From Actinoplanes lobatus (GTDB lineage Bacteria > Actinomycetota > Actinomycetes > Mycobacteriales > Micromonosporaceae): 64,000 nucleotides of DNA. The notes beneath the pieces were generated by a model. The model had not been told where the DNA came from. It ran no database searches and saw only the letters and a list, made by a program, of their open reading frames with translations. Made by a program: the position numbers and the translations under genes. The first letter of the stretch is position 1. Every line of letters starts with the position of its first letter. The DNA lies in NCBI RefSeq assembly GCF_014205215.1, contig NZ_JACHNC010000001.1, positions 4,345,001-4,409,000 on the forward strand. The letters are read 5' to 3'. Shown piece after piece: positions 6,290 through 41,488 of this stretch.

Positions 6290-6337
6290 GATCTTGAACG
6301 ATTTGCCACCCGAGGCGGTGGCAAATCGTTCAAGATC
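6290..6337. repeat. 48-nt palindromic element, copy 1
   Basis: Perfect inverted repeat. Including the flanking base at 6289 and 6338 the arms are 22 bp (6289-6310 and 6317-6338) around a 6-nt loop CGAGGC. Outer arm GATCTTGAACG differs by one base from the family consensus GATCTTGGACG, with the compensating change in the other arm. No T-run follows. Confidence 0.85.
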
Positions 6338-6445
6338 GCTCCGGGTGGCGCGTCCTGCTGGCGAGGGATTGCGGATTCGGCCGTAGGTAGCCAGGAAGAA
6401 GACTCCCGGATGTATCCGATAGCCCAAGGTCTTTCAGCGGAAATA

Positions 6446-6498
6446 GATCATGGACGATGATTGACCGCGCGGTTACGGTGGCCGATCGATCCAAGATC
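6446..6498. repeat. Degenerate copy of the 48-nt palindrome
   Basis: Starts GATCATGGACG and ends CGATCCAAGATC, with TTGACCGC and CGGTGG inside, but is about 5 nt longer than the full copies and poorly paired. Probably a decayed copy. It directly precedes the CCG tract. Confidence 0.45.
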
Positions 6499-6503
6499 GC
6501 CAC

Positions 6504-6858
6504 CGCTGCTGCTGCCATCACCGCCACCGCCATCACCGCCACCGCCGCACCGCCGCCACCGCCGCACCGCCGCTGCCGCCGCACCGCCGCACCGCCGCCG
6601 CCGCACCGCCGCCACCGCCGCCGCCGCACCGCCGCCGCCGCCGCACCGCCGCCGCCGCTGCCGCCGCACCGCCGCCGCCGCCGCACCGCCGCCGCCGCCG
6701 CCGCACCGCCGCCGCCGCCGCACCGCCGCCGCCGCCGCACCGCCGCCGCCGCCGCCGCCGCCGCACCGCCGCCGCCGCCGCACCGCCGCCGCCGCCGCAC
6801 CGCCGCCGCCGCCGCACCGCCGCCGCCGCACCGCCGCCGCCGCACCGCCGCCGCCGCG
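6504..6858. repeat. CCG-rich trinucleotide tract
   Basis: About 355 bp made almost only of CCG triplets interrupted at intervals by CA (CCGCA), so that units of 12-25 bp recur. Five of the six frames are open but code only for Ala, Pro/His/Arg or Gly/Ala runs; I treat it as non-coding. It lies between two palindromic elements. Confidence 0.9.
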
Positions 6859-6895
6859 GCTGGCGCGGTGCCTGCTGGCGCGGGCGCCCTCTCGC

Positions 6896-6943
6896 GATCT
6901 TGGACGTTTTTCTACCGGTTGCGGTGGTCAATCGTCCAAGATC
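6896..6943. repeat. 48-nt palindromic element, copy 2
   Basis: Outer arms GATCTTGGACG and CGTCCAAGATC pair perfectly (14 bp with flanking CGC/GCG); the inner part has CTACCG and CGGTGG around GTTG. Same 48-nt length as the other copies. Confidence 0.85.
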
Positions 6944-7308
6944 GCGGGCTGTGGTTTGGCTCGCGCCTTTCGTTCGGCCTTCCGTCTTCCGGCCGTTTCT
7001 GTTTTCTGGCACTGCGCTGTCCGCCGGTTGCGGATCTCGGCATGCCACGGCCGGGTGATCATCGGACGCGCGAGTCGCGGCTTTTGGGAGGATTCGGCCT
7101 GAGGGTCGCCCCACAGCCGCGCCCCCATCTGGAGCGCCACTGCCCGGCTCGTGGGGTTTTACCGCCCGCAGCCCGAATCACCCGCAAGGGAGGGTCCGGT
7201 CCGGTCGAATCCCGCACAGGCTGAGGAAGGTCCATTTCCCGGCCGGAGATACGGATCTCCAGCCGCCACGGCCGCAGCCCGGTCACGACCCGGGCGGAGG
7301 GGGTCCGC

Positions 7309-8616
7309 GTGACAGAGGCGCGCATGACAGGGAGACGCCATACCCAGAGCCGGCTCCGGCTCGCCGGGTCAGGCGTGCAGCCGCTACTGCTGATGTTCCC
7401 GCTCGGGCTGTTCTGGATGGCGTTCGTCTTCGACCTGGCCACCACGCTCGGCGCGCCCCCTCTGATCGGAACGGTCGCCTTCTGGAACCTGGTGGCCGGC
7501 CTCATCGGTGGCCTGCTCGCCGCACTGGCCGCCGCGGTCGACGCTTTCGGCGCCTCGGACCCGTCCGCCGCCCGGATCTTCTTCCTCGCCCTCCTTCTCG
7601 ACGTCGGTGTACTGATCGTCTTCGCGGTCCTCACCCTGATGCGGGTCCGGGGCCACGACCGCTCCGCCGACGGCGGCCTCCTCGCCCTCGAAGCCGCCGC
7701 TCTGGGGCTGGCCGGTTTCACCGCCTGGTTCAGCGGCCGCCTCGCCGACCCCCAGGCCCCGGTCTCCGACCCACGCCCATCCCACCGCCGCGGCGGCAGC
7801 CTCCTCGACCCGGAAACACCGAGCGACATCCCTGCCCCGCGGGGCGAGCACCCTGGCCCGCGAGGCGGGAATCCCGGCCCGCGAAGCGATAGCCCCGGCC
7901 TGCGGAGCGGGAATCCCGGCCCGCGAAGCGAGACTCCCGGCTCACGGAGCGAGTACCCCGGCCCGCGAAGCAGGGCCTCCAGCCGCGTGCCCGCGGACCC
8001 TGACCCGCGGCGCGAAGACTCCGGCACTCGCTCTTCGCGGCGTGAAACCGCCGTCCCCACCCCTCGTCCTTCGCGTGGATGGCAGGCTGCGGGCCGCCAG
8101 CCGACCCCACCCCAGCGAGGCAGAACCACAGTGCCCGAGGCGCGAGGGCACGGGCCCGCAGCCGTCGAGCGGGAGGTTGGTGGGCAGGCGGGTGCGGCCG
8201 TCGGGCGGGAGCCGGGACGGTGGGGGACGGCCGCGGGGTCTGGGGTGCGTGGGCGTGGGGGTGCGGCTGTCGAGCGGGAGGCTGGTGGGCGTGGGGGTGC
8301 GGCTGTCGAGCGGGAGGTTGGTGGGCAGGCGGATGCGGCCGTCGGGCGGGAGGTTGGTGGGCAGGCGGATGCGGCCGTCGGGCGGGAGCCGGGACGGTGG
8401 GGGACGGCCGCGGGGTCTGGGGTGGGTGGGCGTGGAAGCGCGGCCGTTGAGCGGGAGGCGGGTGCGGACGCCGGGCGGGAGTCCGAGTGGTGGGGCGCGG
8501 CCCCTGGGTCCGGGTCGCGTGGGGGTGGAGACTCGGCAGACGAGTGGGAGTCGGGTCGGCGGGGCGGAGCTGAGCCTCCGCAGTGGCCGGCGCCTACCGG
8601 GCGGGCCGCCCGGTAG
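7309..8616 (+). CDS. DUF2231-type membrane protein with long repetitive tail
   Basis: The first 145 residues resemble DUF2231 membrane domains: about four hydrophobic segments, with PLGLFWMAFVFDLAT and AGLIGGLLAALAAAVDAF typical of the family, whose function is unknown. The following 290 residues are low-complexity and charged: first imperfect PGPRSE/PGPRGG units (7840-7975), then 11-residue units like AAVEREVGGQA (8160-8460). The GTG at 7309 follows a purine-rich GGAGGGGG; ATG 7324 is an alternative. The tail has no stop in frame, but its composition makes me unsure that all of it is under selection. Its stop is 6 bp before the convergent monooxygenase-like gene. Confidence 0.6.
   Translation: MTEARMTGRRHTQSRLRLAGSGVQPLLLMFPLGLFWMAFVFDLATTLGAPPLIGTVAFWNLVAGLIGGLLAALAAAVDAFGASDPSAARIFFLALLLDVGVLIVFAVLTLMRVRGHDRSADGGLLALEAAALGLAGFTAWFSGRLADPQAPVSDPRPSHRRGGSLLDPETPSDIPAPRGEHPGPRGGNPGPRSDSPGLRSGNPGPRSETPGSRSEYPGPRSRASSRVPADPDPRREDSGTRSSRRETAVPTPRPSRGWQAAGRQPTPPQRGRTTVPEARGHGPAAVEREVGGQAGAAVGREPGRWGTAAGSGVRGRGGAAVEREAGGRGGAAVEREVGGQADAAVGREVGGQADAAVGREPGRWGTAAGSGVGGRGSAAVEREAGADAGRESEWWGAAPGSGSRGGGDSADEWESGRRGGAEPPQWPAPTGRAAR
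8160..8460 (+). repeat. 33-bp imperfect tandem repeats in the DUF2231 tail
   Basis: Units encoding AAVERE(V/A)GGQA/GRG and AAVGREPGRWG recur; an approximately 75-bp block including GRWGTAAGSGV occurs twice (around 8209 and 8386). Units are multiples of three, so the frame is kept. Confidence 0.75.
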
Positions 8617-8622
8617 GGCGGG

Positions 8623-8928
8623 TCAGGCGGGTGGGGGCCAGGCGGAGACGACCTCGGCGTGGCGGATGCCGCCCGACTCGGTGATGTGCCGGAACCAGGC
8701 GGCACACTCGGGGATCGAGGCGATCTCGCGGGCCGACGCCTCCGCCTCCTCCCGGGAGCGCCAGACCAGGACGTCCAGCCAGCCGCCGTCCTCCTCCTTG
8801 CTCAGGTAGGCGGCCAGGCAGCCGGGGAAGCCGCGGCGTAACGCCGCCAGCATGGCGGGGCGCTCGGCGATCAGTTGCTCCTCGGCGCCCTCGGCGATGG
8901 TGAAGCGGGCCAACTCGAGAACGGCCAT
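8623..8928 (-). CDS. Antibiotic-biosynthesis-monooxygenase-like (ABM/dimeric alpha-beta barrel) protein
   Basis: A 101-residue protein starting at ATG 8928. Its pattern of beta-alpha-beta with LARFTIAEG, a helix with RPAMLAALRRGFPG, and GWLDVLVWRSREEAEA fits the dimeric alpha-beta barrel superfamily that includes ABM quinone-forming monooxygenases and many proteins of unknown role. No cofactor residue can be assigned. It lies 41 bp downstream of the WYL regulator on the same strand and is probably co-transcribed with it. Confidence 0.7.
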   Translation of the reverse strand: MAVLELARFTIAEGAEEQLIAERPAMLAALRRGFPGCLAAYLSKEEDGGWLDVLVWRSREEAEASAREIASIPECAAWFRHITESGGIRHAEVVSAWPPPA

Positions 8929-8969
8929 GGTTCCTCGATTCTCCAGCGGGGACCGGTATGCCGCGGACC

Positions 8970-9941
8970 CTACGCGGCACCCCCGACATTTTTCGGCCGC
9001 GCGGCTGCGAGCAGGCGTTCCGCGATCCGGCGGGCGGCGTCGCGGATCTCCGGGCTGTCGACGATGCGGTAGTCGGCGGGGATGACGGTGAGCTGCTGGG
9101 CGTACCAGCGGGGGTTGCTGGTGCTGCCGGTCAGGATGGTGGTGCCCGGCTCCGGGCCGGGGGTCAGCGCGCCCAGGGCGGGGCTCAGCCAGGCGGGGAT
9201 GTCGGCGATCGGGGCCTCGATCAGGATCTCGGCGCGGAATTCCCAGCCGACGGCCAGGTGGGCGTCGAGCACGGCGACCGGGTCCAGGTCGGCGGGCGGC
9301 CGGAAGCCGGTGGGCAGGATCTCCACGGCGGTGACCCGGTCGATCCGGTACGCCCGTCGCGCGCCCGCCGCATGGGAGTGGCACAGCAGATACCACCGCC
9401 CGTGCCGCACCACGATGGCCCACGGGTCCACTTCGGCCGTCCACTCCGAACCGGCCTCGGTGCGATAGCCGACCCGTACCCGGAGATTCTGAGCGCACGC
9501 CCGCACCAGGCCGCTGGTGATCTCGGGGTCGGGCCGCGCGGCGCCGCGGTCGGGGGCCGGTGCGGCCGTCCGCCGGACCGCCTCGACCTGTGCGCCCAAG
9601 CTCTCCGGCAGCACCCGGACGATCTTGCCGAGGGCGCTGCCGACCGGATCGGCTGTGTCGCCGGCCGCGTGGTGGCCGTCGAGGACCGCCATGACCAGGC
9701 CGAGCGCCTCCGCCTGCGTGAAGATCAGCGGGGCGGGCCGGGCGCCGCGACCGACCTTGTATCCGCCGTAGGGCCCGCGGACGGACTCGATGGGGAGCCC
9801 GGCCTCGCGCAGGATGGCGATGTAGCGCCGGGCCGCCCGGTCGGAGATGCCGAGCCGTTCGGCGATCCGGTCCGCGGTGATCCCGGGAGCGCCCTGGACC
9901 GCCTCGTAGGCCATCAGCGCCCGTGCGGTCGGGCTCAGCAT
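8970..9941 (-). CDS. WYL-domain transcriptional regulator (YafY/DeoR-like)
   Basis: A 323-residue protein: N-terminal winged HTH (about 5-60; ITADRIAERLGISDRAARRYIAIL) followed by a WYL domain around 150-230 (DPWAIVVRHGRWYLLCHSH) and a C-terminal WCX-like part. WYL proteins bind nucleic acid or nucleotide-like ligands and control DNA-damage, phage-defence or metabolic genes. Here the only same-strand partner is the small ABM-like gene downstream, so local autoregulation is the simplest reading. It is divergent from the GNAT gene. Confidence 0.88.
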   Translation of the reverse strand: MLSPTARALMAYEAVQGAPGITADRIAERLGISDRAARRYIAILREAGLPIESVRGPYGGYKVGRGARPAPLIFTQAEALGLVMAVLDGHHAAGDTADPVGSALGKIVRVLPESLGAQVEAVRRTAAPAPDRGAARPDPEITSGLVRACAQNLRVRVGYRTEAGSEWTAEVDPWAIVVRHGRWYLLCHSHAAGARRAYRIDRVTAVEILPTGFRPPADLDPVAVLDAHLAVGWEFRAEILIEAPIADIPAWLSPALGALTPGPEPGTTILTGSTSNPRWYAQQLTVIPADYRIVDSPEIRDAARRIAERLLAAARPKNVGGAA

Positions 9942-10078
9942 CGGCGTACCCCTCGAATCCGGAAGTAGAACGTCCGGAGCGGAAGGCTAGCGTGCGGGCG
10001 TGACGGAGAACATCCCGCGAGCGCCCGCCGGTCTGAAACATCGTCGCGTGGCGGCGGTCGTTGTGTGATCGTGGGCGG

Positions 10079-10645
10079 ATGCCGCAACCGACGCTGACCA
10101 CCGAGCGGATGGTGCTGGTCCCGCTGACGGACGAGCATCTCGAGTACGAGGTGGAGCTCGACGCCGATCCCGAGGTGCTGCGTTACATCGAGGGCCGGGC
10201 CCGCACCCGTGAGGAGGTGGCCGGCTGTCACGCGGAGCGCATGGAGCTGGGTGGGCGGGTGGACGGGCTGGGCTACTGGCTGGCGACCGAGAGGACCGGA
10301 GAGTTCGTCGGCGTGATGATGCTGCCGCCGGCGGAACGGCCGGGGGAGGCCGAGCTGGGCTACCGGCTGCTGCGACGGTGCTGGCGGCGGGGCCTGGCCG
10401 CGGAGGGCGCCGCCGCGCTGGTGCGGCACGGCTTCGCGACGGCCGGCCAGGAGCGGATCATCGCGCAGACCATGACGGTGAACACCGGCTCCCGGCGGGT
10501 GATGGAGAAGTGCGGGCTACGGTACGTGCGGACCTTCTTCCCGGACTATCCGCCGATCCCGGGCTCCGGCGAGGGCGAGGTGGAGTACGCGATCACCCGT
10601 GCCGAATGGCGGGCCGCCACCGGTCTGCGGGAGGTGGGCCTGTGA
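10079..10645 (+). CDS. GNAT-family N-acetyltransferase (RimJ/RimL-like)
   Basis: A 188-residue acetyltransferase starting at ATG 10079. It opens with the RimJ/L-type LTTERMVLVPLTDEH, has the beta-strand/helix region GEAELGYRLLRRCWRRGLAAEGAAALV containing the acetyl-CoA pyrophosphate loop (RRGLAAEG), and ends with NTGSRRVMEKCGLRYV, typical of RimL-like enzymes that acetylate protein N-termini or small amines. The substrate is not predictable. Followed by the DUF4265 gene after 42 bp or more. Confidence 0.85.
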   Translation: MPQPTLTTERMVLVPLTDEHLEYEVELDADPEVLRYIEGRARTREEVAGCHAERMELGGRVDGLGYWLATERTGEFVGVMMLPPAERPGEAELGYRLLRRCWRRGLAAEGAAALVRHGFATAGQERIIAQTMTVNTGSRRVMEKCGLRYVRTFFPDYPPIPGSGEGEVEYAITRAEWRAATGLREVGL

Positions 10646-10687
10646 TGCGACGGTCGATCTTCTGGGAGACTACGTCTCCGCGCGGCT

Positions 10688-11215
10688 GTGGGGTGCGACG
10701 GCAAAGGGGTCCGGCATGACGAAAGCCGCTTGGTGACCGTCGTGGACGCGGTCAAAGTCCACTTCGACCTGCCGAGGACGAACGACGACTGGCCACCCGT
10801 GTCGGTCGAGAGCCTCTGGGCCGAACCGGTCGGCGACGACGTGGTCCGGCTCAGCAACGCGCCCTGGTTCGTGCGCGGTGTCGCCAACGGTGATCTGATC
10901 CGGGTGCGGCGGGACGAGGACGGCGTCCACTGGGCCACCGAGCAGGTGGAGTGGTCCGGGCGCTGCACGATCCGGGTCGTCCCGTTCGGCAGTGGCCCGT
11001 TGCGCGGTTCGGTGCAGCGGGTGCTGGACGCGTTCGAGCCGTTCGGGGTGACCGGTGAGGGCATCCGTCAGTACCACCTGGCCGCCCTGGACGTGCCGCC
11101 GGACGCCGACCTGGCCGCCGTCCAGCGGGTGCTGCGCGCCGGAGCCCGCGACGGCTGGTGGGACTACGACGAGGGCTGCGTGGGCGACGACTGGCTGGCC
11201 GCCGCCCCGAACTGA
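10688..11215 (+). CDS. DUF4265-domain protein
   Basis: Up to 175 residues; GTG 10733 is an alternative start giving about 160 residues and beginning just before the domain. The pattern VKVHFDL... VESLWAEPVGDDVVRLSNAPWF followed by VANGDLIRVR matches DUF4265, a family of unknown function often found near toxin-immunity or signalling genes. C-terminal WWDYDEGCVGDDW is also a family feature. No enzymatic residues are evident. It converges with the alpha/beta hydrolase. Confidence 0.7.
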   Translation: MGCDGKGVRHDESRLVTVVDAVKVHFDLPRTNDDWPPVSVESLWAEPVGDDVVRLSNAPWFVRGVANGDLIRVRRDEDGVHWATEQVEWSGRCTIRVVPFGSGPLRGSVQRVLDAFEPFGVTGEGIRQYHLAALDVPPDADLAAVQRVLRAGARDGWWDYDEGCVGDDWLAAAPN

Positions 11216-11224
11216 AAGCCCACC

Positions 11225-11240
11225 GGGCTGAGGTCAGCCC
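11225..11240. terminator. Possible bidirectional terminator hairpin
   Basis: Inverted repeat GGGCTGA-GG-TCAGCCC lies between the convergent DUF4265 and hydrolase genes and overlaps the hydrolase stop codon. The loop is tight and there is no T-run, so this is tentative. Confidence 0.35.
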
Positions 11241-12025
11241 ACCCGGGCGGGTGCGGCGAAGAACTCCGCGAGCGGCTCGACCACCTGGGCGGGCGCCCGG
11301 TTGACGGCGTCGTGCGCGGCGCGCGGCACCAGCAGGGTGCGGGCGTGCGGCAGCACCGCGGCCAGTGCCTCGTTGAGCCGCGGATAGTAGGACGGTCCGT
11401 TCGCGCCGCAGGCCAGCAGCACCTCGCAGTCGATCCCGGCCCACTGCTCGGCCGGCCCGGTGAAGGCCCGGATCCCGTCGACCTCGTCCAGCGTCAACGG
11501 CAGGAGCTCACCCATCTCGCGGCCGATCGGGGTGCGCATGAACAGCCGGCAGATCGCCGTCTGCACCGAGAGCGGCAGCCGGCTGGCCGCGCTGTGCGTG
11601 TTGATCCCGGCGCTGGTCAGGGCGAGCGCGCGGGCGATGTCGCCGGCTCGTGCCGCCTCCCGGGCGGGTTCCACCCAGGCGGTCGGGAAGAGGTCGCCGA
11701 TCGGGACCACCCCGTCGTAGAGGGCCAGCCGCTCGACCGCGCCCTGCCGTGCGGCGAGCAGGGCGACGATGCCGCCGCCGCTGTGCCCGAGGACGTTGTG
11801 CGAGCCGGTCTGCCGCAGCACCGTGAGCAGGTCGTCGACGTCCTCCTGGACGTCGTAGGGCAGGGACCGGGCCGGTGCGTCGCCGCGCCCCCGCCGGTCG
11901 TAGAGGTGCACGGTGAACCGGTCGGCCAGCTTCCCGGCCAGTCGGCGGTAGATGCCGGAGGTGACCCCGCCGCCGTGCACCACCACGATTCCCGGCCCGT
12001 TGCCGGTGGAGTGGACCTGAACCAT
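11234..12025 (-). CDS. Alpha/beta-fold hydrolase
   Basis: A 263-residue cytosolic hydrolase. Visible are the oxyanion region HGGGVTSGIYRRLA, the nucleophile elbow GHSGGG (Ser in NVLGHSGGGIVAL), an acid in the lid-following strand and a C-terminal His in RAAHDAV. The fold is that of esterases/haloperoxidase-like enzymes; the substrate is unknown. It is divergent from a TetR gene with a clear inverted-repeat operator between them, so the TetR protein probably represses this gene and itself. Confidence 0.85.
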   Translation of the reverse strand: MVQVHSTGNGPGIVVVHGGGVTSGIYRRLAGKLADRFTVHLYDRRGRGDAPARSLPYDVQEDVDDLLTVLRQTGSHNVLGHSGGGIVALLAARQGAVERLALYDGVVPIGDLFPTAWVEPAREAARAGDIARALALTSAGINTHSAASRLPLSVQTAICRLFMRTPIGREMGELLPLTLDEVDGIRAFTGPAEQWAGIDCEVLLACGANGPSYYPRLNEALAAVLPHARTLLVPRAAHDAVNRAPAQVVEPLAEFFAAPARVG

Positions 12026-12049
12026 CTGAACCCTGCCTTCGGTGAGGAA

Positions 12050-12076
12050 TAAACCGCGAACGACGTTCGCAGTTTA
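12050..12076. promoter_or_regulatory. Inverted-repeat operator between hydrolase and TetR genes
   Basis: TAAACCGCGAA (12050-12060) and TTCGCAGTTTA (12066-12076) form arms matching at 10 of 11 positions, separated by CGACG. It sits between the divergent starts at 12025 and 12082, 5 bp before the TetR start, a typical TetR self-operator position. Confidence 0.65.
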
Positions 12077-12081
12077 CAGTG

Positions 12082-12729
12082 ATGCGAGTGAGCGACGCAT
12101 CCCCCATCTGGATCCGCCCGGCCCGCGGCGCCCGCGGGCCCCAGCCCACCCACAGCCGGGACGAGATCGTCGAAGCCGCGATCGCCCTGGCCGACGCCGA
12201 GGGCCTGGCGGCCGTCTCGATGCGGGCGGTGGCCACCGCGCTGAACACCGGCGCCGGGTCGCTCTACCGCTACCTGTCGTCCCGCGACGACCTGCTCGAC
12301 CTGATGACCGACCGGGTGGTGACCGGGTTGCGGCCCTTTCCGGATCCCGCCGGGGAGCCGGTGGACTCGCTGACCGTCCTGGCCGGGCGGCAGCTCGCCC
12401 TCTACCGCCGGCATCCCTGGGCGATCGACCTGCTGCACCGCCCGACCGGGATCGGGCCGGAGGCCCTGGCCTGGTTCGACCACTGTCTCGGGGTGCTGGC
12501 GCCGGTGCCGTGCGGGTCGGCCGCCAAGTTCGAGGCGCTGGCCATGATGACCGGCGTGGTGACGCTCTTCGCCCGCTCCGAGAGCGCAGTGCCGCCGCCC
12601 GCCTTCACCGGGCTCGACCTGACGGTCTATCCCCATCTCGTCGCGGCTTTCGCTGATCCCGGGGCGCGGCGCCCGGACCTTTTCGACCGTACGCTGCGCG
12701 GCCTGCTCACCGCGCTGCTGTACGACTGA
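12082..12729 (+). CDS. TetR-family regulator (TetR_C-type ligand domain)
   Basis: About 215 residues. The N-terminal HTH is clear (SRDEIVEAAIALADAEG, then MRAVATALNTGAGSLYRYLSSRDDLL), with the C-terminal part (70-215) resembling the tetracycline-repressor-type ligand domain. ATG 12082 is preferred; a GTG one codon upstream is possible. It likely controls the divergent hydrolase through the palindrome at 12050-12076. The ligand is unknown. Confidence 0.88.
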   Translation: MRVSDASPIWIRPARGARGPQPTHSRDEIVEAAIALADAEGLAAVSMRAVATALNTGAGSLYRYLSSRDDLLDLMTDRVVTGLRPFPDPAGEPVDSLTVLAGRQLALYRRHPWAIDLLHRPTGIGPEALAWFDHCLGVLAPVPCGSAAKFEALAMMTGVVTLFARSESAVPPPAFTGLDLTVYPHLVAAFADPGARRPDLFDRTLRGLLTALLYD

Positions 12730-12961
12730 GGGGTGACCGCGACCCACCACTCAAGCCCGGATGCGGGCGCCACGGCCCGGAGTGGCAGACGATCGCGACC
12801 GCGCCGCCAGGGCCGCGCGTAGCCGTACCGGAAATCGGTGTCATGAAGTGGACCAGAGGCCGCAGCCGGCCGACAGGAAGGCAAAGCCCGCCCCTTCACT
12901 CACCGTTCACAACGGGTGACTCGGTGCAAGAGATCAGAAATGGGTGCCTAGGATGATCGGC

Positions 12962-13203: not shown

Positions 13204-13211
13204 GTCAGCCG

Positions 13212-14740: not shown

Positions 14741-14758
14741 ACACCCTAAGGTGGTGAC

Positions 14759-34311: not shown

Positions 34312-34358
34312 CCTAGGGTGTAGGCACGCGGCGACGGGGGTCGCGGGAAGGATGTTCC

Positions 34359-35327
34359 ATGCTCACTGAACTGGGTCTGTCCACCTGGGACGAGACGGTG
34401 TATCGAGCAATGCTCCAGAGTCCCAGGGCCGGTGTGGCGCAGTTGGCCGCACAGCTCGAGGTCGACGAGCCGGCGGTCCGCGGCGCTCTGGACCGGCTCC
34501 TCGATCTCGCGTTGCTCCGCAGTTCCGACGACGGCCTGTGCGCGGTGAGGCCGATGGCGGGACTCATGTCGCTGCTGGACCGGGCCGAACGCGAGGTGAC
34601 CCTTCGGCAGCGCCGGCTCGAAGTGGCGCGGCTGTCCATCGCCACCTTCGCCACCGAGTTCTCCCACCAGGCCGGCACCGACCTGATCACCCGGCTGGAA
34701 GGCATCGACGCGGTCCGGGACCGGCTCGTGGAACTGGCGCAGGAGGCGAAACACGACTGCCTCAGCTTCAACAGCGGTGGCGCGCAGGCGCCGGACATCA
34801 TCGACGCGGAGAAGCCGCTCAACCAGCAGGCCCTGGAACGCGGGGTGCAGATCCGCGAGATCTACCAGGAGAGCTTCCGCAACGACCCCGGCACGCTGGC
34901 GCACGCCGAATGGATGGCGCGGCTCGGCGGACACTCCCGGACCGTGCCGACACTGCCGATGCGCCTGGTCATCGTCGACCAGCGGACCGCCCTCGTGCCG
35001 ATCGACCCCGACGACCCGCGAGCCGGGGCGCTGGAGATCAGCACACCGGGCGTCGTGGCCGGGCTGATCGCCCTCTTCGAACACATCTGGGCTTCGGGCC
35101 GCCCGTTCGGCGAGGCGGCCGCCCGGGACCAGCTCGGCCTGACCACCCAGGAGCGTGGCCTGATCGAACTGCTCGCCGAAGGCCACACCGACGAGTCGGC
35201 CGGTCGCAAGCTGGCGATATCCACCCGCAGCGTGCAGCGGACCATGATGGTGCTTACCCAGCGGCTCGGCGTCAGCAGCCGGTTCCAGGCCGGGGTGGAG
35301 GCGACCCGGAAGGGTTGGGTGCGCTGA
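34359..35327 (+). CDS. TrmB-like/LuxR-type transcriptional regulator
   Basis: A 322-residue protein: N-terminal TrmB-like winged helix (about 1-70; GVAQLAAQLEVDEPAVRGALDRL), a middle ligand or phospholipase-D-like region (100-240), and a C-terminal LuxR-type HTH (about 258-315; LTTQERGLIELLAEGHTDESAGRKL). Such regulators are numerous in Streptomyces and Actinoplanes and often sit beside small peptide or export genes, as here. The ISAs1 insertion lies directly upstream and probably cut its promoter. Confidence 0.85.
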   Translation: MLTELGLSTWDETVYRAMLQSPRAGVAQLAAQLEVDEPAVRGALDRLLDLALLRSSDDGLCAVRPMAGLMSLLDRAEREVTLRQRRLEVARLSIATFATEFSHQAGTDLITRLEGIDAVRDRLVELAQEAKHDCLSFNSGGAQAPDIIDAEKPLNQQALERGVQIREIYQESFRNDPGTLAHAEWMARLGGHSRTVPTLPMRLVIVDQRTALVPIDPDDPRAGALEISTPGVVAGLIALFEHIWASGRPFGEAAARDQLGLTTQERGLIELLAEGHTDESAGRKLAISTRSVQRTMMVLTQRLGVSSRFQAGVEATRKGWVR

Positions 35328-35375
35328 GAGGCCGCTTTCAGAGGCGCCTTTCGAGGCCGCCTGTTGTCACTGTGC

Positions 35376-35513
35376 TCAGTTCCACCTGGGAGGCGGGGGT
35401 GAGTTCCGGCCCGGACTGTAGGCGGTACCCAAGTCCACGGTGCACTGACCGAAAACGATCAGCAGACTGAGCGCCGACAGCGCGAGGGCGAGATTGTTTC
35501 GCCAAATTCTCAT
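35376..35513 (-). CDS. Possible 45-residue small membrane or secreted peptide
   Basis: An ATG-initiated frame of 45 codons: basic start MRIWRNN, hydrophobic stretch LALALSALSLLIVFG (8-22), one Cys (24), then a polar tail with four prolines ending RWN. No good ribosome site is seen before it, so expression is uncertain. It lies between the TrmB/LuxR regulator (convergent) and the MFS gene (divergent). It could be a signal-type peptide or chance. Confidence 0.35.
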   Translation of the reverse strand: MRIWRNNLALALSALSLLIVFGQCTVDLGTAYSPGRNSPPPPRWN

Positions 35514-35574
35514 GGTGGTAAATATTGGGAAGTGTCGCGCTTGGTGGTGTCCCGGCGCGGGCTACCGTTCCCGG

Positions 35575-36768
35575 GTGACCGAGACCGCCGCCGCCCAGGG
35601 CCAGACGCTGCGCCAGCTCGGACCGACCGTCTACCTGCCGTCGGCGGTCTACTCCACCGGCATCGGGGCAGTCGCGCCGGTGATCGTGCTGACCGCCACC
35701 GGCCTCGGCGCGTCCCCCGCGGTCGCCGCGATCGTCGCCGGGCTGCTCGGCCTGGGCCAGATCAGCGGCTCCCTGCCGGCCGGCGTGCTGATCTCCCGGG
35801 TGGGGGAGCGGCGCACCATGCTCGCCGCCGCCGGGCTCGCCATCCCCGCCCTGATCTGCTGCATGCTCGCCCCGAACGTGCTGCTCCTAGGAGCGGCGGT
35901 CGCGCTCCTGGGAGTGTGCGGTTCGGCGTGGGCGCTGTCCCGCCACGCCTACCTCACCGAGGCGGTCCGCCCCGAACTGCGCGCCCGCGCCATGTCCACC
36001 CTCGGCGGCGTCGGCCGGATCGGCACGTTCACCGGCCCGTTCCTCGGCGCCGCCGCCATGCACCTGGCCGGGCTCGACGGGGCGTACCTCGTCGCCGTCA
36101 CCGGAGTCGGCCTGGCCACCGTCGTACTGATCGTGTCCCCGCCGGTCCCGCACGACCGCGCCGTACCGGCCGGAACCGAACGCCCCGGCCTGTGGACGGT
36201 CATCCGCGACAACCGGCACACCCTGCGCACCCTCGGCGTCGGCGTACTGCTGGTCGGCGCGCTGCGCGCCTCCCGCCAGACCATCGTCCCGCTGTGGGGC
36301 GTATCCCTCGGCCTCGACCCGGCCACCATCGGCCTGATCTACGGCGTCTCCGGCGGCGTCGACATGCTGCTGTTCTATCCGGCCGGCAAACTCATGGACC
36401 GCTACGGCCGGCGGTGGGCCGCGGTCCCCGCGATGACCCTGCTCGGTGTGGCACACGCCCTGCTGCCGCTGGCCACGGGCGCGTTCGGCCTCACCGCGGC
36501 GGCGCTGCTCATGGGCCTCGGCAACGGCCTGAGCGCGGGCCTGGTCATGACCCTCGGCGCGGACGCGTCCCCCGCGGCCGGGCGCGCCGAGTTCCTCGGC
36601 GCTTGGCGTCTCTGCTCCGACATCGGCCAGGGCGGCGGCCCCCTCCTGATCGGCGCGGTCACCGCGGTCGCCTCCCTAACAGCCGCCGCGATCACGGTGG
36701 GCGGCGCGGGCCTGCTCGCCGCGGTCCTGCTCCACCGATGGATAAAACCCCATCCCCAGTACGCGTAA
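35575..36768 (+). CDS. MFS transporter
   Basis: A 397-residue protein, about 12 membrane segments; GTG 35575 chosen because the upstream 27 residues are polar and Cys/Trp-rich, unlike a leader. Motif A after TM2 reads GVLISRVGERRTM, and the middle repeat has GKLMDRYGRRW. Probably a drug or metabolite exporter. Together with the neighbouring regulator and peptide frame it could form a small regulated unit; this is inference. Confidence 0.85.
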   Translation: MTETAAAQGQTLRQLGPTVYLPSAVYSTGIGAVAPVIVLTATGLGASPAVAAIVAGLLGLGQISGSLPAGVLISRVGERRTMLAAAGLAIPALICCMLAPNVLLLGAAVALLGVCGSAWALSRHAYLTEAVRPELRARAMSTLGGVGRIGTFTGPFLGAAAMHLAGLDGAYLVAVTGVGLATVVLIVSPPVPHDRAVPAGTERPGLWTVIRDNRHTLRTLGVGVLLVGALRASRQTIVPLWGVSLGLDPATIGLIYGVSGGVDMLLFYPAGKLMDRYGRRWAAVPAMTLLGVAHALLPLATGAFGLTAAALLMGLGNGLSAGLVMTLGADASPAAGRAEFLGAWRLCSDIGQGGGPLLIGAVTAVASLTAAAITVGGAGLLAAVLLHRWIKPHPQYA

Positions 36769-36782
36769 AGCACACCGCCCAC

Positions 36783-36872
36783 CCCACCGTGCCCGACCCC
36801 TCGCCCGCCTACCGCATCCCTCGCTCGCCCCACCGTGCCCGACCCCTCGCCCGCCTACCGCATCCCTCACCC
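36783..36872. repeat. 45-bp direct duplication
   Basis: Two tandem copies (36783-36827, 36828-36872) beginning CCCACCGTGCCCGACCCC, differing by a few bases at the end. Non-coding. Confidence 0.85.
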
Positions 36873-36990
36873 GCCCGCAAAATCCCCGGCCTCTCTCACT
36901 CCACTCAATCCGTCACCCGTGGTCCTCGGGTTGTGCCCGTCCTCGCGTGTGCCCGCCCTCCTGCCCTCGCGTCTCGGGGCTTTCCCCATT

Positions 36991-37038
36991 GATCTTGGAC
37001 GTTTGTTCACCGCGTTTGGTGGGTGAGCGTCCAAGGTC
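36991..37038. repeat. 48-nt palindromic element, copy 3
   Basis: Arms GATCTTGGACG and CGTCCAAGGTC (one G-T type mismatch), inner TTCACCG and TTGGTGGG. Confidence 0.85.
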
Positions 37039-37092
37039 GTCGCAGTTGGGGAAGTGTGAGTCGTTGCAGGGCGGACCCGCATGTCTCGTCCT

Positions 37093-37140
37093 GATCTTGG
37101 ACGTTCGGCCGCCGCCCTGGGTGGAGAGGCGTCCAAGGTT
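37093..37140. repeat. 48-nt palindromic element, copy 4
   Basis: Arms GATCTTGGACG and CGTCCAAGGTT; starts 102 bp after copy 3. Confidence 0.85.
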
Positions 37141-37196
37141 GTCGTGGTTGGGGAAGTGTGAGCTGGTGCGGGGATGGATCGCGCGCGCCTCGTCCT

Positions 37197-37244
37197 GATC
37201 TTGGACGTTCGGCCACCGCCCTGGGTGGAGAGGCGTCCAAGGTT
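37197..37244. repeat. 48-nt palindromic element, copy 5
   Basis: Differs from copy 4 by a single base (CCACCG for CCGCCG) and lies 104 bp after it, so copies 4 and 5 arose by tandem duplication. Confidence 0.88.
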
Positions 37245-37317
37245 GTCGCTTTTGGAGAAGTGTGAGCCGTTGCAGGGATGGGCCGCACGCCTCGTCGCGA
37301 TCTTGGCGTTCCCCACT

Positions 37318-37465
37318 CTGATCTTGGGCGTTCCCCGCCGCCTGATCTTGGGTTTTACCCGCCGCCTGATCTTGGGTGTTTGTGCACCGTCTGGCCCTGG
37401 GCGTTTGTGCACCGTCTGGCCCTGGGTGTTTGTGCACTGTCTGATCTTGGGGATTTGTCCACCGT
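37318..37465. repeat. Ladder of 24-25-bp half units of the palindrome
   Basis: Units beginning CTGATCTTGGG or CTGGCCCTGGG repeat at 24, 24, 25, 25 and 25 bp. Each equals the left half of the 48-nt element, without its right half; the last unit runs into full copy 6. Confidence 0.8.
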
Positions 37466-37490
37466 TGTCGGTGGGGGAGCGTCCAAGGTC
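37443..37490. repeat. 48-nt palindromic element, copy 6
   Basis: Left arm GATCTTGGGGA is diverged, right arm CGTCCAAGGTC is kept; inner CCACCG and CGGTGG pair. Confidence 0.8.
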
Positions 37491-37546
37491 GTCGTGGTTG
37501 GGGAGTGTGAGCTGTTGTGGGGGCGACGGATCGCGCGCCTTGGCGC

Positions 37547-37594
37547 GATCTTGGGTGTTTGGCCACCGCGCTTGGTAGGGGAGCGTCCAAGATC
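37547..37594. repeat. 48-nt palindromic element, copy 7
   Basis: Left GATCTTGGGTG, right CGTCCAAGATC, inner CCACCG and TTGGTAG. 104 bp after copy 6. Confidence 0.8.
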
Positions 37595-37647
37595 GCCATG
37601 GCTTGTGGAAGTGGAGGGTGGGTGAGTGGGGTCTGGAGGGGGTGTTG

Positions 37648-38403
37648 TTAGACGTCTATCAGCAACAGGCCGTCGCCTATCAGGCCTACGTCGGGGTCGC
37701 CCTCGTAGGGGGCGACCTGCAAGGTTCGCTCGCCGTCGACCCGGAAGAGCTGGCCGATCTCGAAATCGTGGCCCTCGGCCAGCATTCGGGCCAGGTGGTT
37801 GAGGATCATGGCGGTCTGCTCGATCCGCGCCGGCGGGACTCCGGCGATCAGGTCCGGGCGACCAAATTTGATCATGCCTCGGGTGTGCACCGGATGCCCG
37901 AAGCCGGGACGGCTGTCGGTCTCCGCGACCAGCCCGACATCCCGCTGGATGACGAACGGCCGGTGCGCGTCCAACCCGGCGACCTCGTCACCCGGGTGCC
38001 AGCTGTGCGTGTACACGTCCAGCACCGCGAACGCCCCCGCCTCGGCCAGCAGCCCGGCCACCGCCCAGCCGAGCTGTAGATGGGTCAGGTCGGACGGGTC
38101 GTCGACGATCAGCCGGATCGAGTAGCACCACGTCGCGGCGTCCAGACGCTCCGGGTCGGGCAGTTCCCGGGCCGCCACCTGCCGCAGCGGCCCCGAACGC
38201 CACCCGTCGAACCACTCCGGGTCGTCGGAATACCGGTGCTGACGCAGGTCCAGCGCGGCCAGCGGCGCCGACGGCGGGGCGCCGACCTTGAGGTCGAGTC
38301 CGCTCAGCACGTCCCGTTCGGCGAAGGCGACGAACATCGTCGACGCCGGGCGGCCGGTGGGGCGGAATGCCGGGCGCGGCCACGGTTCGATCAGAGTGCT
38401 CAC
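37648..38403 (-). CDS. Hypothetical 251-residue protein
   Basis: Cytosolic, acidic, no membrane segment. Recognisable features are only a VVYTHSW-like strand (VLDVYTHSWHPGD) and HTRGMIKFGRPDL near residue 185, which vaguely recall DUF4261-type proteins. ATG 38403. Third-position GC is typical of real genes. It lies downstream of the sigma/membrane-partner pair on the same strand with an 18-bp gap, so it may be their third gene. Function unknown. Confidence 0.65.
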   Translation of the reverse strand: MSTLIEPWPRPAFRPTGRPASTMFVAFAERDVLSGLDLKVGAPPSAPLAALDLRQHRYSDDPEWFDGWRSGPLRQVAARELPDPERLDAATWCYSIRLIVDDPSDLTHLQLGWAVAGLLAEAGAFAVLDVYTHSWHPGDEVAGLDAHRPFVIQRDVGLVAETDSRPGFGHPVHTRGMIKFGRPDLIAGVPPARIEQTAMILNHLARMLAEGHDFEIGQLFRVDGERTLQVAPYEGDPDVGLIGDGLLLIDV

Positions 38404-38421
38404 CTGATCATCCTGCCAGCG

Positions 38422-39405
38422 TCAGCCCCGGTAGGTGATCCCCGCGGCAAACCTCAGGATGCGTTCCCGGCCCAGCGGAATCGTCCGTTGATCCCACTCG
38501 ATCCGCAGGGTGCGACCGCCATCCAGGTCGATGTCGAAGATCCCGGCGTCGACATTCAGACACGCCTGCTTGCCGCCGATGATCAGTCGCTCCCCATGTG
38601 GCCTGGGCTCGAACTCCTCCTCCAGGACGTAGACGCACAAGCCCTCGGGCTGCTGCTGCTTGCCGGACATCTCCTGCGGAACCTGGCAGACCATGGTCGG
38701 GCTCACGTACTGCGGAGCCATGCCGGCAATGTGCTCGGCGAACGTGAACGTGGGTAGCGCCGGCGGAACCACGCCGGGCTCGCTGCCCAGTTCCCGGGCG
38801 AACCGGAGGACCTCCTCCTCGCTGTACGGTCCGAGGCTCGTCACCTGGACCCACTTGTCCTCGCCTGTCTTCCAGCGCACGCCCACATATCGGTAACCGG
38901 GAGCCGCGCCGTCGTAGTCGTCGGCGGTGTGCACGATCGCGGGACGGTCGCCGATCGTCGTGGAGCTCTCGGCGGTCGCCTCCACCTCCCACTCCGGTTC
39001 CAGCGGACCGAACTCGGCGGCCAGCATCTGAGTGTCCTTCTCGTAACGCAGGACCTGGTTGGGGCCCATCATCTCCAGTGTGGTCGGGCCCACCCCCTCC
39101 GGAACGTAGCCTGGTCGTAGGTCGAAGACAGGCATCGGCTCCCATGGTCCGAGACCCGACATGTCCGGCAGCGAGGGGCCCGGTGCGGCCGGAACACCCG
39201 ACGACGAACCGTCCCCGTTCCGGATCACGAGTGGCACGGCAAGTACCGCTGCGGCCGTCACCACGGCCACTCCGGTCGCCAGCCACCGACGGCGGCGCTG
39301 ATCACGTCGTACCCCTTGAATGGTCTCGGTCAGTAGATCGGCCGGCGGCATCGTCTCCGAGGCCCGGTCCCGAAGGGTGATCCGAAGGTCGTCCTCGAAG
39401 CTCAT
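38422..39405 (-). CDS. Single-span membrane protein, likely partner (anti-sigma-like) of the SigE-family factor
   Basis: 327 residues: a cytosolic N-terminus (about 1-42; FEDDLRITLRDRASETMPPADLL), one membrane span (43-60; ATGVAVVTAAAVLAVPLVI) and a long extracytoplasmic part. This is the layout of the proteins encoded after SigE-family sigma genes in actinomycetes; many lack a classic zinc anti-sigma domain, and so does this one. It starts 25 bp after the sigma stop. Probably holds the sigma factor at the membrane; not proven. Confidence 0.75.
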   Translation of the reverse strand: MSFEDDLRITLRDRASETMPPADLLTETIQGVRRDQRRRRWLATGVAVVTAAAVLAVPLVIRNGDGSSSGVPAAPGPSLPDMSGLGPWEPMPVFDLRPGYVPEGVGPTTLEMMGPNQVLRYEKDTQMLAAEFGPLEPEWEVEATAESSTTIGDRPAIVHTADDYDGAAPGYRYVGVRWKTGEDKWVQVTSLGPYSEEEVLRFARELGSEPGVVPPALPTFTFAEHIAGMAPQYVSPTMVCQVPQEMSGKQQQPEGLCVYVLEEEFEPRPHGERLIIGGKQACLNVDAGIFDIDLDGGRTLRIEWDQRTIPLGRERILRFAAGITYRG

Positions 39406-39430
39406 GCCGGCACCTCCGTGCTGTTCTCAG

Positions 39431-39931
39431 TCATGGGTTCGATTCCTCTTTCGTGGCCTGCGCCAGGCCGGCCCGCAACCGGGCCAGAGCACGAGCGGCA
39501 TGGACCCGCACCGTGCTGGGCGAACAGCGCAGCACCTCAGCGATCTGCCGGTCGTCGAGATCCTCGTAGTACCGCAGCACCATGACCGCCCGCTGCGCCC
39601 GGGTGAGAGCGCCGAGCCGGGACCAGATCTCGTCGCGCAGCGCCTGCCCCTCGGCGAAGTCACCGTCGACGGGCGCGTCCGGCACGACGCCCGGGCGCTC
39701 CCCGCTGGACCGGCGGCGCAGCCACGAGACGTGCGATCTGACGATGGCGGTCCGCACGTACCGATCGGGTTGGTCTGTTTCGATCTTTGGCCATCGTCGA
39801 AACGCCTTGACCAGCACCTCTTGCACCAGATCCTCGCCGAGGTGCCGATCGCCGCAGATCAGATAGGCGAACCGTCTCAGCGAGTCACCCCGATCCCGCA
39901 CGAACTCCTCGAACCCGCTCCGCACTGGCAC
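39431..39931 (-). CDS. SigE-family RNA polymerase sigma factor (ECF group 4)
   Basis: 166 residues. Region 2 opens FEEFVRDRGDSLRRFAYLICGD and continues HLGEDLVQEVLVKAFRRWPKI; region 4 is ALTRAQRAVMVLRYYEDLDDRQIAEVLRCSPSTVRVHAARAL. This is the SigE-family group frequent in Micromonosporaceae. It is the promoter-proximal gene of a leftward operon with the membrane protein and possibly the hypothetical gene at 37648. Target promoters unknown. Confidence 0.92.
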   Translation of the reverse strand: MPVRSGFEEFVRDRGDSLRRFAYLICGDRHLGEDLVQEVLVKAFRRWPKIETDQPDRYVRTAIVRSHVSWLRRRSSGERPGVVPDAPVDGDFAEGQALRDEIWSRLGALTRAQRAVMVLRYYEDLDDRQIAEVLRCSPSTVRVHAARALARLRAGLAQATKEESNP

Positions 39932-40028
39932 TCCCCGCCGTCGATCGCTCCGTCAATTTCTAGGACGCGCCGGCGAGCCGGATCCGCTTACCCCTCAGCC
40001 GGTGACACCGCTTTCTACAGTGGCAAGG

Positions 40029-40313
40029 ATGCGGATGAGCTTCGATGTAGGTGCCGAGGAGCGCCACACCGTGGTGTTCTCGTTCAACAAGTTCTGGGGT
40101 GGCCTGTCCATCACGGTGGACGGTCACGAGGTCGTCAACACCGTACGGATAGCCTCGTTGAAGCTGGTCAAAAGGTACAACCTTGTGGTCGGGGCTCGGG
40201 AACAGCACTTCGTGACGATCGAGCACCATCGGAAGCTGCTCTTCGCCGGCCTGCGGGATCAGCCGGTCCATGCGTACGTCGATGGGGTGCTCGTTGCGGA
40301 GGGTGTCGCCTGA
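40029..40313 (+). CDS. Hypothetical 94-residue protein
   Basis: A small beta-rich protein (MRMSFDVGAEERHTVVFSFN, FWGGLSITVDGHEV, KLLFAGLRDQPVHAYVDG), resembling a single immunoglobulin-like or PH-like sheet; no assigned family. ATG 40029; another ATG two codons later. Unlinked in operon terms. Function unknown. Confidence 0.6.
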   Translation: MRMSFDVGAEERHTVVFSFNKFWGGLSITVDGHEVVNTVRIASLKLVKRYNLVVGAREQHFVTIEHHRKLLFAGLRDQPVHAYVDGVLVAEGVA

Positions 40314-40409
40314 TTTCCCGTCCTTATCCCGGCCTTAACGTTCACACAGCGTGCCCATAGTGATCTTCGCGGGATGGTTCACCCGTTCCGATCGACAGGA
40401 GGGGAAGCC

Positions 40410-41048
40410 GTGAAGAAGAAGATCACCGTGGCGATGTTCGCCGCTGGATCGCTGGTCGTGCTGGGTTTCGGGGGCGCCGCGCTGGCGGAGGGCTCGGATG
40501 ACGGTCGGCCGCGGGCGGTCGCCTCGCCATCGGCTACGGCGAGTGAGTCGGTCGACCCGAGTGAGTCGCCCAGCCCCAGCGGAACCGTGAACTCCACCGT
40601 GCCGGCCGGCGTCGGCGTGACCGCCGGTGAGGCGCGGGCCATCGCGCTCCGTGCCGTCCCGGGCGGTGTCATCGAATCGGTCGAGCGGGAGACGGAGCAC
40701 GGCCGGATCGTCTGGGACATCGACGTGGTCGTCGGCGGCGTCGAGCATGACATCGACGTGGATGCCGCCACTGGCGAGATCACCCGCCACCGAACCGACG
40801 ACGACCGGGACGGGAAGAGCCGTACCGACGACGGTGGGCGTGTACGGAGCGACGACAGTGGCCGTGATGACCGGGCTGACGACAGCGGCCGATCCCGGAG
40901 TGACGACAGTGGCCGCGACGACCGGGCTGACGACAGCGGCCGATCCCGGAGTGACGACAGTGGCCGTGATGGCCGCAACGACGACAAGGGCCGTGACGAC
41001 GCTGGCGACGATCACGGTGGTGACCGTAACGGCAGCGACGACGACTGA
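40410..41048 (+). CDS. Secreted PepSY-domain protein with Asp/Ser/Arg repeat tail
   Basis: 212 residues from GTG 40410, preceded by a strong AGGAGGGG site. A signal peptide (about 1-28, VKKKITVAMFAAGSLVVLG) is followed by a PepSY domain (about 68-128; VTAGEARAIALRAVPGG and WDIDVVVGGVEHDIDVDAATG) and a C-terminal 80 residues of DDSGRDDRADDSGRSRS-type repeats. PepSY domains inhibit or modulate peptidases or sense the envelope. The two-component genes at 41812-43742 lie beyond the repeat region; PepSY proteins are often their targets, but no direct link is visible. Confidence 0.85.
   Translation: MKKKITVAMFAAGSLVVLGFGGAALAEGSDDGRPRAVASPSATASESVDPSESPSPSGTVNSTVPAGVGVTAGEARAIALRAVPGGVIESVERETEHGRIVWDIDVVVGGVEHDIDVDAATGEITRHRTDDDRDGKSRTDDGGRVRSDDSGRDDRADDSGRSRSDDSGRDDRADDSGRSRSDDSGRDGRNDDKGRDDAGDDHGGDRNGSDDD
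40846..40973 (+). repeat. 51-bp tandem repeats in the PepSY tail
   Basis: Units encoding SDDSGRDDRADDSGRSR recur about 2.5 times, in frame, differing by few bases. Confidence 0.85.
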
Positions 41049-41118
41049 TCGGGCGTCGCTCGCGGCCGCGCCTCACGCCCGCGGCTGATTGCGCTCGCCT
41101 CCGCCGCCCTCGCACGCG

Positions 41119-41166
41119 GATCTTGGACGCTTGACCACCGAATGCGGTCGTCGATCGTCCAAGATC
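41119..41166. repeat. 48-nt palindromic element, copy 8
   Basis: Perfect 11-bp outer arms GATCTTGGACG and CGTCCAAGATC; inner CCACCGAATGCGGT. Confidence 0.88.
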
Positions 41167-41336
41167 GCGGCGGGGGCGGTTTTGCGTGTTGCTTGTGCTT
41201 GGCTGCGCACCTTCTTCGCTGTCCGCAACGCCCGGATCCTTGGATGACTGGCCAATGGTTCTGGTGGTCGTCGCCTTGATCGCGTGGGGTTGGCGTTGCG
41301 TTGTGCCTGATCTTGCGCGTCCGCTTCTTGGGGCGC

Positions 41337-41384
41337 GATCTTGGGCGGTTGACCACCGCCTCGGGTGGTCGATCGTCCAAGATT
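41337..41384. repeat. 48-nt palindromic element, copy 9
   Basis: Arms GATCTTGGGCG and CGTCCAAGATT; inner arms GACCACC and GGTGGTC. Confidence 0.85.
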
Positions 41385-41440
41385 GCGGCGAGGTGGTCCT
41401 GCGGCCTTTCGGTTATTGATGGCCCAAGCCCTTGGCCTGC

Positions 41441-41488
41441 GGATCTTGGACGCTTGGCCACCGAATGCGGTTGTTAATCGTCCAAGAT
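41441..41488. repeat. 48-nt palindromic element, copy 10
   Basis: Perfect 11-bp outer arms as in copy 8; inner CCACCGAATGCGGTT is almost the same as copy 8, so these two are recent relatives. 104 bp after copy 9. Confidence 0.88.

Follow-up and report, generated by a model that had tools for sequence, protein, structure and literature searches.

A family of 48-nt palindromes was found in a 64,000-nt stretch of the Actinoplanes lobatus chromosome (hereafter the window, C1:4345001-4409000 of the 10.4-Mb genome that holds it, G000) and at many further places of the same genome. The family is probably a new one of DNA repeats resembling repetitive extragenic palindromes (REPs), independent of the REP-associated tyrosine transposase (RAYT), whose outer arms would be read as DNA by a putative protein. 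New for a REP-like family are the fixed length, the lineage-specific and covarying inner arms, the helix-phased arrays, and the lack of a linked RAYT in the six carrier genomes tested.

The 48-nt unit and its helically phased arrays

Each unit is a dyad of 22+4+22 nt, composed of an outer 11-bp arm (GATCTTGGACG), an inner 11-bp arm, and a 4-nt loop; the outer arm is common to the copies that were searched for. In the window this arm occurs at 65 places with at most two mismatches, against a shuffle mean of 19.1 (standard deviation 4.4). The sequence-only reading had listed ten palindromes there, and nine of its starts were confirmed by reading the sequence, the tenth lying at 41442 instead of 41441. 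All ten reach E <= 1.6e-14 by covariance model, a value that is not independent because the model was partly built from these copies. The claim that the unit is exactly 48 nt long was borne out genome-wide, since all 47 perfect-arm pairs of A. lobatus have a 26-nt interior when 24-28 nt are allowed, as do 46 of 46 pairs in the window and the fetched regions when 10-60 nt are allowed; a decayed copy of 53 nt (6446-6498) makes an eleventh in the window.

A 40-position consensus scan found 151 copies in 469 kb of the A. lobatus genome, namely the window and 40 fetched regions around places mostly outside the 266-bp element described below. Of these copies, 148 score 31-39 and three 26-28, with a background of at most 24 and a reversed-sequence control of at most 23. 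The covariance model R1 gave 150 matches on this genome, counted per strand and hence at least 75 places, with 150 of 15,896 candidates scored. Single-stranded DNA folds of six copies, some of them chosen for good pairing, have energies of -15 to -29 kcal/mol (z -5.9 to -13). The outcome that would have spoken against a family, only ten copies and no covariation, is therefore not what the search of the genome and its relatives with the covariance model and the pattern returned, given the 151 copies and the covariation across genomes. The suggestion of a REP-like nature likewise held, the units being short, palindromic, extragenic, numerous, located at 3' ends, and arranged in arrays. As a separate observation, 20 of the 44 A. 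lobatus loci listed fall in C1 3.2-5.0 Mb, a sixth of the chromosome (Rayleigh p = 0.018); this interval was picked post hoc and is not used.

Arrays in A. lobatus contain up to nine copies, and in both A. lobatus and A. flavus they are spaced near whole helical turns. The 166 neighbour spacings of at most 170 bp from A. lobatus, A. flavus, and A. utahensis peak at 82-83, 93, 103-105, 115-116, and 124-126 bp, with none at 85-89 or 96-101 bp. Because many array linkers are related, with one component joining 15 loci, the spacings were collapsed to one per locus or per component. One spacing per locus up to 130 bp, with orthologues merged, gave R(10.5) = 0.665 (n = 31, jitter p = 2e-5), and one per strict component gave R(10.5) = 0.702 (n = 17, jitter p = 3e-4). 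Up to 170 bp, R was 0.55 per locus (n = 39, p = 8e-5) and 0.63 per component (n = 19, p = 0.001). Taken alone, per locus and up to 130 bp, A. lobatus gave R = 0.78 (n = 22, p = 2e-5) and A. flavus R = 0.63 (n = 17, p = 0.002). The merged locus L232/L316/L322 is confounded in this test, being a coding locus with spacings divisible by three. The helix-phased alignment suggests that the palindromes are read by a protein.

Gene context, spread among genomes, and turnover

Copies sit at the 3' ends of genes, above all between convergent genes, as judged with a home-made codon-usage gene caller and not a published one. The 46 arrays and single copies of A. lobatus comprise 29 in convergent, 14 in tandem, one in divergent, and two in undetermined arrangement. 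Among gaps of at least 50 nt, those with copies number 28/14/1 (convergent/tandem/divergent), against 15/91/69 for gaps without copies in the same regions. The 124 places in other genomes divide into 36 convergent, 56 tandem, 14 divergent, 13 at contig edges, and five inside predicted open reading frames (ORFs); copy-free gaps there number 32/178/101 (convergent versus divergent, Fisher p = 4e-9), and in the convergent gaps the palindrome lies a median of 28 nt from one stop and 70 nt from the other.

The statement that copies occur only in gene-free stretches applies to the window and fails about 370 nt past its right end, where an array (L232:4629-5141) lies in frame inside a 2063-aa ORF resembling a nonribosomal peptide synthetase (NRPS; AMP-binding, PP-binding, Condensation) and encodes a repeat of about 31 residues. 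The orthologous A. flavus and A. utahensis arrays are open too, so that three Actinoplanes species carry in-frame arrays in the NRPS-like gene (L232:4629-5141, L316:2065-2856, L322:2427-3182). All their spacings are divisible by three (93; 93; 198/132/132/246), and the repeat encoded by each unit is DLGR- or DLER-...SKI-like. An automatic in-frame scan returned 0 of 381, which is no evidence, as its filter was too strict and missed L232 as well. Rickettsia palindromic elements are palindromes that lie in frame within a protein gene, and the in-frame array, seen here at one NRPS-like locus, can be likened to them.

The perfect-arm 48-nt pattern was detected in 16 of 300 genomes of the family, A. 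lobatus included, and in seven of 44 genera, with none in the reversed control. The genome G043 carries 71 perfect-arm copies, A. lobatus 47, A. flavus (G236) 20, G055 16, G074 11, and A. utahensis (G188) seven, and the other ten carriers one or two each. A search of named genomes gave at least 120 stretches, with Actinoplanes, Virgisporangium, Micromonospora, Planosporangium, Hamadaea, and four metagenome-assembled genomes (MAGs) among the matches listed. Two of these MAGs carry the label Micromonosporaceae, and the other two are assigned no further than Actinobacteria/Actinomycetota; one of that second pair, VAWN, is G043 and belongs to the same family. So far, among the matches listed, the hosts are thus Micromonosporaceae and one unplaced actinomycete MAG.

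The inner arms are wholly different between genomes (e.g., TTGGTGGCCCC, GAAACGGCCCC, CTTGTGCATCG, CTTAGACCGGC), yet each matches its partner. A cross-genome alignment was made of 27 copies from 17 genomes, taking all copies where one or two were seen and otherwise the first two by locus number; outer arms and length were fixed by the search pattern, and inner pairing was no selection criterion. Its covariation score was 0.331, compared with 0.108 (standard deviation 0.015) after shuffling and 0.07-0.11 in slid controls, paired cells made up 88.4% versus 74.6%, and two-sided cells numbered 85 versus 37.5, each value being reached by none of 500 shuffles. Arms matched better inside a copy than between copies of the same genome in five of the ten genomes with at least two copies (Virgisporangium ochraceum, Virgisporangium aurantiacum, SLSW, P. 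thailandense, and WHTQ), and A. lobatus and A. flavus are among the five where they did not. Copies of the A. lobatus genome show no hairpin covariation among themselves, their pairing being the product of independent columns, and the pairs 12/37, 15/34, and 16/33 fall even below independence. The symmetry in Actinoplanes is therefore a shared consensus and not compensation within recent copies, and the change from the consensus to GAACG/CGTTC in window copy 1, which had been regarded as compensating, is not used as evidence; it is no private event and marks a subfamily carried by the 266-bp element. The cross-genome covariation fits DNA and RNA hairpins alike.

Sites persist between A. lobatus and A. 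flavus while copy number and spacing turn over. For twelve A. lobatus loci, A. flavus has copies at the equivalent position, in a comparison set that is biased by the use of the repeat itself to find most A. flavus loci. Spacings in paired arrays (A. lobatus versus A. flavus) are 124 three times versus 93/92/230/93/92, 105/104/106/161 versus 103/103/82, and 188/94/191/93 versus 95 three times. One of the twelve is the L219 site, where the two outer arms of the A. flavus copy are symmetrically changed from T-A to C-G. At two sites found only in A. flavus (L121 and L183), the corresponding A. lobatus places have no copies.

A 266-bp element targeting the palindrome loop, and the features of the window

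Palindrome copy 1 lies within a 266-bp element with a terminal inverted repeat (TIR, GAGTCTYCTTCTTGG), which has at least 41 matches of at least 174 bp in the A. lobatus genome (40 of 108 candidates scored). Its TIRs, non-coding size, and target duplication are those of a miniature inverted-repeat transposable element (MITE), and it is a separate element that uses the 4-nt loop of the 48-nt palindrome as its target. In seven copies (L056, L060, L063, L073, L074, L079, and L083) both flanks are 22-nt palindrome halves, with at least nine of 11 arm matches on each side, so the 4 nt flanking the MITE are the palindrome loop; the duplicated loop is identical in five of them, alike at three of four positions in L063, and at one of four in L074. 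Thirty MITE copies were fetched, 28 of them with both ends, and the flanking 4 nt are identical in 18, alike at three of four positions in eight, and at one of four in two, whereas 207 of 3000 random places had identical 4-nt flanks under the same freedom. Most of the other copies share one larger shell, which is a weak 22+4+22 palindrome in its own right (loop CCGG), and as the shell was amplified as a whole, these copies, which cover most of the 18, are not independent insertions. IS1397, an insertion sequence (IS), is likewise said to insert in the loop of a REP palindrome.

The loop of the palindrome borne by the MITE occurs in both orientations, 12 versus six of 18 copies (by eye; L019-L021, L026-L040, L056-L085), and the MITE itself lies in both orientations within the shell; both are nested inversions at inverted repeats. 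The whole MITE is found in none of the other 66 genomes of the genus, which gave only palindrome matches or, in G149, a 68-base right end. No autonomous partner with a long TIR pair was seen in the A. lobatus genome (by eye, paired TIRs with at most one mismatch). Often found next to MITE copies is another dispersed repeat, about 530 nt long (L121:1407-1933 and many sites in G000), with several dozen matches, most of them partial, at about 66-89% identity.

Those genes next to the palindromes that have a Pfam match are ordinary. They comprise three of ten window ORFs (MFS, PepSY, histidine kinase) and nine of ten neighbours in other places (heme oxygenase, DEAD helicase, Dus, argininosuccinate synthase, M20 peptidase, and others). 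No trusted family recurs near the copies among permissive six-frame ORFs; the largest cluster of neighbour proteins, from 11 loci, resembles ordinary large families read in several frames.

Features of the palindrome family in the window, numbered from its first letter
Feature	Position	Strand	Basis or remark
Truncated 266-bp MITE-like element carrying palindrome copy 1	6221..6407	+	Matches query positions 85-271 of 291, 96%; G000:C1:4351221-4351407; right end ..AGAAGACTC
48-nt palindrome copy 1, GAACG/CGTTC subfamily, within the MITE fragment	6290..6337		Sequence and covariance model
Decayed palindrome copy, 53 nt	6446..6498		Covariance model, 19.8 bits, match 6444-6500
48-nt palindrome	6896..6943		Sequence and covariance model
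48-nt palindrome, in array between convergent genes	36991..37038		Sequence, covariance model, and gene context
48-nt palindrome, 102 bp after the preceding copy	37093..37140		Sequence and consensus scan
48-nt palindrome, 104 bp after the preceding copy	37197..37244		Sequence and consensus scan
Tandem half-palindromes, about six left halves of about 24-25 nt each	37300..37442	+	By eye
48-nt palindrome	37443..37490		Sequence and covariance model
48-nt palindrome, 104 bp after the preceding copy	37547..37594		Sequence and consensus scan
48-nt palindrome	41119..41166		Sequence and covariance model
48-nt palindrome	41337..41384		Sequence and covariance model
48-nt palindrome, 105 bp after the preceding copy	41442..41489		Sequence, arm search, and consensus scan

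In some of the left-half-only units GATCTTGG is replaced by GGCCCTGG. Tracts of low complexity, resembling CCGCCGCA and GCGAGGGCGACGG, adjoin palindromes at 6520-6860 and 41490-41710, and an imperfect inverted repeat with 96-nt arms, 71% complementary, lies near the right end of the window at 63706-63902.

Weighing the readings and comparison with known systems

We infer that recognition as DNA by a putative protein is the best-supported mechanism. The two outer arms would be the half-sites of a putative sequence-specific DNA-binding protein, which would read the unit as double-stranded (or cruciform) DNA, and in arrays one face of the helix may be shared by several complexes. At transcript ends the units may act as a boundary, topology, or 3'-end element; the arrays would grow via local tandem duplication, and dispersal to new sites might depend on some enzyme or on a piggy-back within other elements such as the MITE. 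The earlier suggestion of a protein-recognised unit thus receives indirect support from the helical phasing, the outer arm common across genera, and the absence of an overall G-U preference.

Several points weigh against this reading, beginning with the fact that no binding protein for the palindrome was identified. The phasing is not clear beyond about 130 bp, the best period shifting to 10.7-11.0 bp when spacings up to 170 bp are taken and lying between 10.5 and 11 depending on the set, and A. utahensis, with three spacings of at most 170 bp (132, 132, and 170) and none of at most 130, allows no phasing test. Phased arrays are so far found in two Actinoplanes species, and arrays are lacking in the other genera seen; no neighbours less than 300 bp apart occur in the examined loci of G043 (VAWN), V. 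ochraceum, SLSW, A. utahensis, and others. The perfect-arm form is absent from 284 of the 300 family genomes and so cannot be a general housekeeping site. In the cross-genome alignment, the number of pairs with any two-sided change is not raised (11 versus 10.3 after shuffling; 214 of 500). The scarcity of half-decayed copies is due in part to locus selection, as array loci were picked by high model score and decayed copies are under-sampled. No target duplication was seen for the 48-nt unit, and L121 and L183, where large blocks differ, offer no clean empty site. The proposal of a mobile MITE-like unit accordingly has to be divided, since these last two signs of mobility are missing for the palindrome itself and the 266-bp MITE that targets it is a separate element.

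A rather doubtful alternative is that the palindromes are bidirectional terminators or 3'-end-stabilising RNA hairpins turned repetitive, the RNA hairpin ending or protecting converging transcripts. It draws on their place close behind stop codons and in convergent gaps, and on the heme oxygenase/DEAD-helicase site (L219), where A. lobatus and A. flavus carry the 48-nt palindrome and other Actinoplanes an unrelated short hairpin, GTGGGACC..GGTCCCAC or similar (L249, L250, L252, L253, L255-L258, L260, and L261), with stems reached by six of 100 shuffles at L257 and by at most two of 100 at the other loci. In a comparison of 30 loci, several of which have lost the gene arrangement, by a measure that misses bulged hairpins, ten loci, A. 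flavus included, have a stem reached by at most two of 100 shuffles, but the other 20 have no such stem, the A. lobatus locus L246 among them (only its 6-bp inner stem counted). The U tract that follows the GC-rich hairpin of an intrinsic terminator is also missing, the 8 nt outside the palindromes being 50% G and 9% T. Across 42 A. lobatus copies between same-direction genes, the sense strand has 65 G-U versus 66 A-C mismatches and hence no overall preference for G-U, although this test is weak, as the oppositely biased arrays L240 (23:2) and L210 (2:23) weigh heavily in it; the ratio is 152:119 at convergent places, where the sense is undefined, and 15:4 over five copies at one divergent locus. 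Moreover, termination requires no common 11-bp sequence, no helical spacing, and no arrays of as many as nine copies. The related idea of a structured RNA lost ground, with no covariation among the A. lobatus copies and no Rfam match in the window at gathering score.

The dispersed copies, the fixed ends, and the two A. flavus sites without a copy at the corresponding A. lobatus place would also suit relics of a transposon, in which two TIRs closed to a minimal MITE served by a DDE transposase in trans. This origin is improbable, however, because the search for a complete transposon ending in GATCTTGGACG (outer arms separated by 60-4000 bp, inner match) gave only three weak pairs in 80 of the at least 120 named loci, and the split pairs of A. 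lobatus, two of 318 bp (48+266+4) among about 100 of 220 single-arm places listed, are explained by the MITE. The missing target duplication and recurrent linked gene speak against it as well. A REP doublet hairpin (REPIN) moved by a RAYT would account for the REP-like size, the palindromes, the 3' position, and the tandem arrays, but it is largely refuted here and seems barely credible. Y1_Tnp was searched for in six of the 16 carriers (A. lobatus, A. flavus, G188, G043, G055, and G074), and four of the five carriers tested among the 15 other than A. lobatus (G188, G043, G055, and G074), including the one with 71 perfect copies, gave no match. A. flavus has a single gene, which contains a stop, and three fragments at contig ends. 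In A. lobatus there are two genes of the IS200/IS605 type and four pieces, and no palindrome lies within 1.5 kb of any of these six. The linked transposase that the sequence-only reading had proposed to look for was thus not found in the six carriers, nor was a recurrent neighbour gene.

No published description of the 48-nt repeat was found among the matches listed from the Creative Commons-licensed PMC literature. The REPs and bacterial interspersed mosaic elements (BIMEs) of the GTAG super-family and the REPINs with RAYTs are similar, as PMC3733652 and PMC3116915 describe them, in being short extragenic palindromes with many copies in convergent or unidirectional gaps, with tandem arrays and lineage-specific variants; in P. 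fluorescens, REPINs form ordered tandem clusters (PMC3116915). The present family differs in having no GTAG tag, a stem of 22 bp versus the 5-13 bp given for GTAG REPs in PMC3733652, and a constant length, as well as no RAYT in the carriers tested and helix-phased arrays. CGTC-tagged REPs (Di Nocera et al. 2013, PMC3733652) share the 3'-end position and, as far as the carriers tested go, the lack of a dedicated transposase; they are described there with an unpaired CGTC, a stem of 8-9 bp, a CCA tail, rare clusters, and hosts in five other phyla, whereas the letters CGTC of the 48-nt family lie within the stem, paired with GACG in 27 of 27 cross-genome rows (by construction of the pattern) and in the perfect-arm window copies. 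Untagged REP-like families are mentioned in M. tuberculosis and D. radiodurans in the same source. IS elements targeting REP palindromes, such as IS1397, ISKpn1, IS621, and others (PMC1525189), are alike in that a mobile element inserts into a repeated extragenic palindrome; here, by contrast, insertion is by a 266-bp MITE, which brings along a copy of the palindrome it targets and leaves the 4-nt loop duplicated.

Beyond recognition by a protein, it is put forward tentatively, as a possibility short of an even chance, that a higher-order nucleoprotein complex assembles on the arrays and, at places where supercoils accumulate from convergent transcription, would serve as a boundary or supercoil sink. 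A dimeric protein would bind each 48-bp dyad via the conserved 11-bp arms; with spacings of about 8, 9, 10, 11, or 12 turns and empty short-range valleys, neighbours on one face might interact, and selection on phase could preserve the register even as arrays change in length and units in size from one species to another. If true, the arrays would be counterparts of gyrase-binding BIMEs that bear a function and do without a RAYT. A REP-like family lacking the transposase to which many REPs are traced separates the question of how REPs spread from that of why they are kept, and the loop-targeting MITE that carries its own target shows one repeat family feeding another. The fixed length, common half-site, and phased spacing make the long-open function of REPs approachable by binding and spacing experiments.

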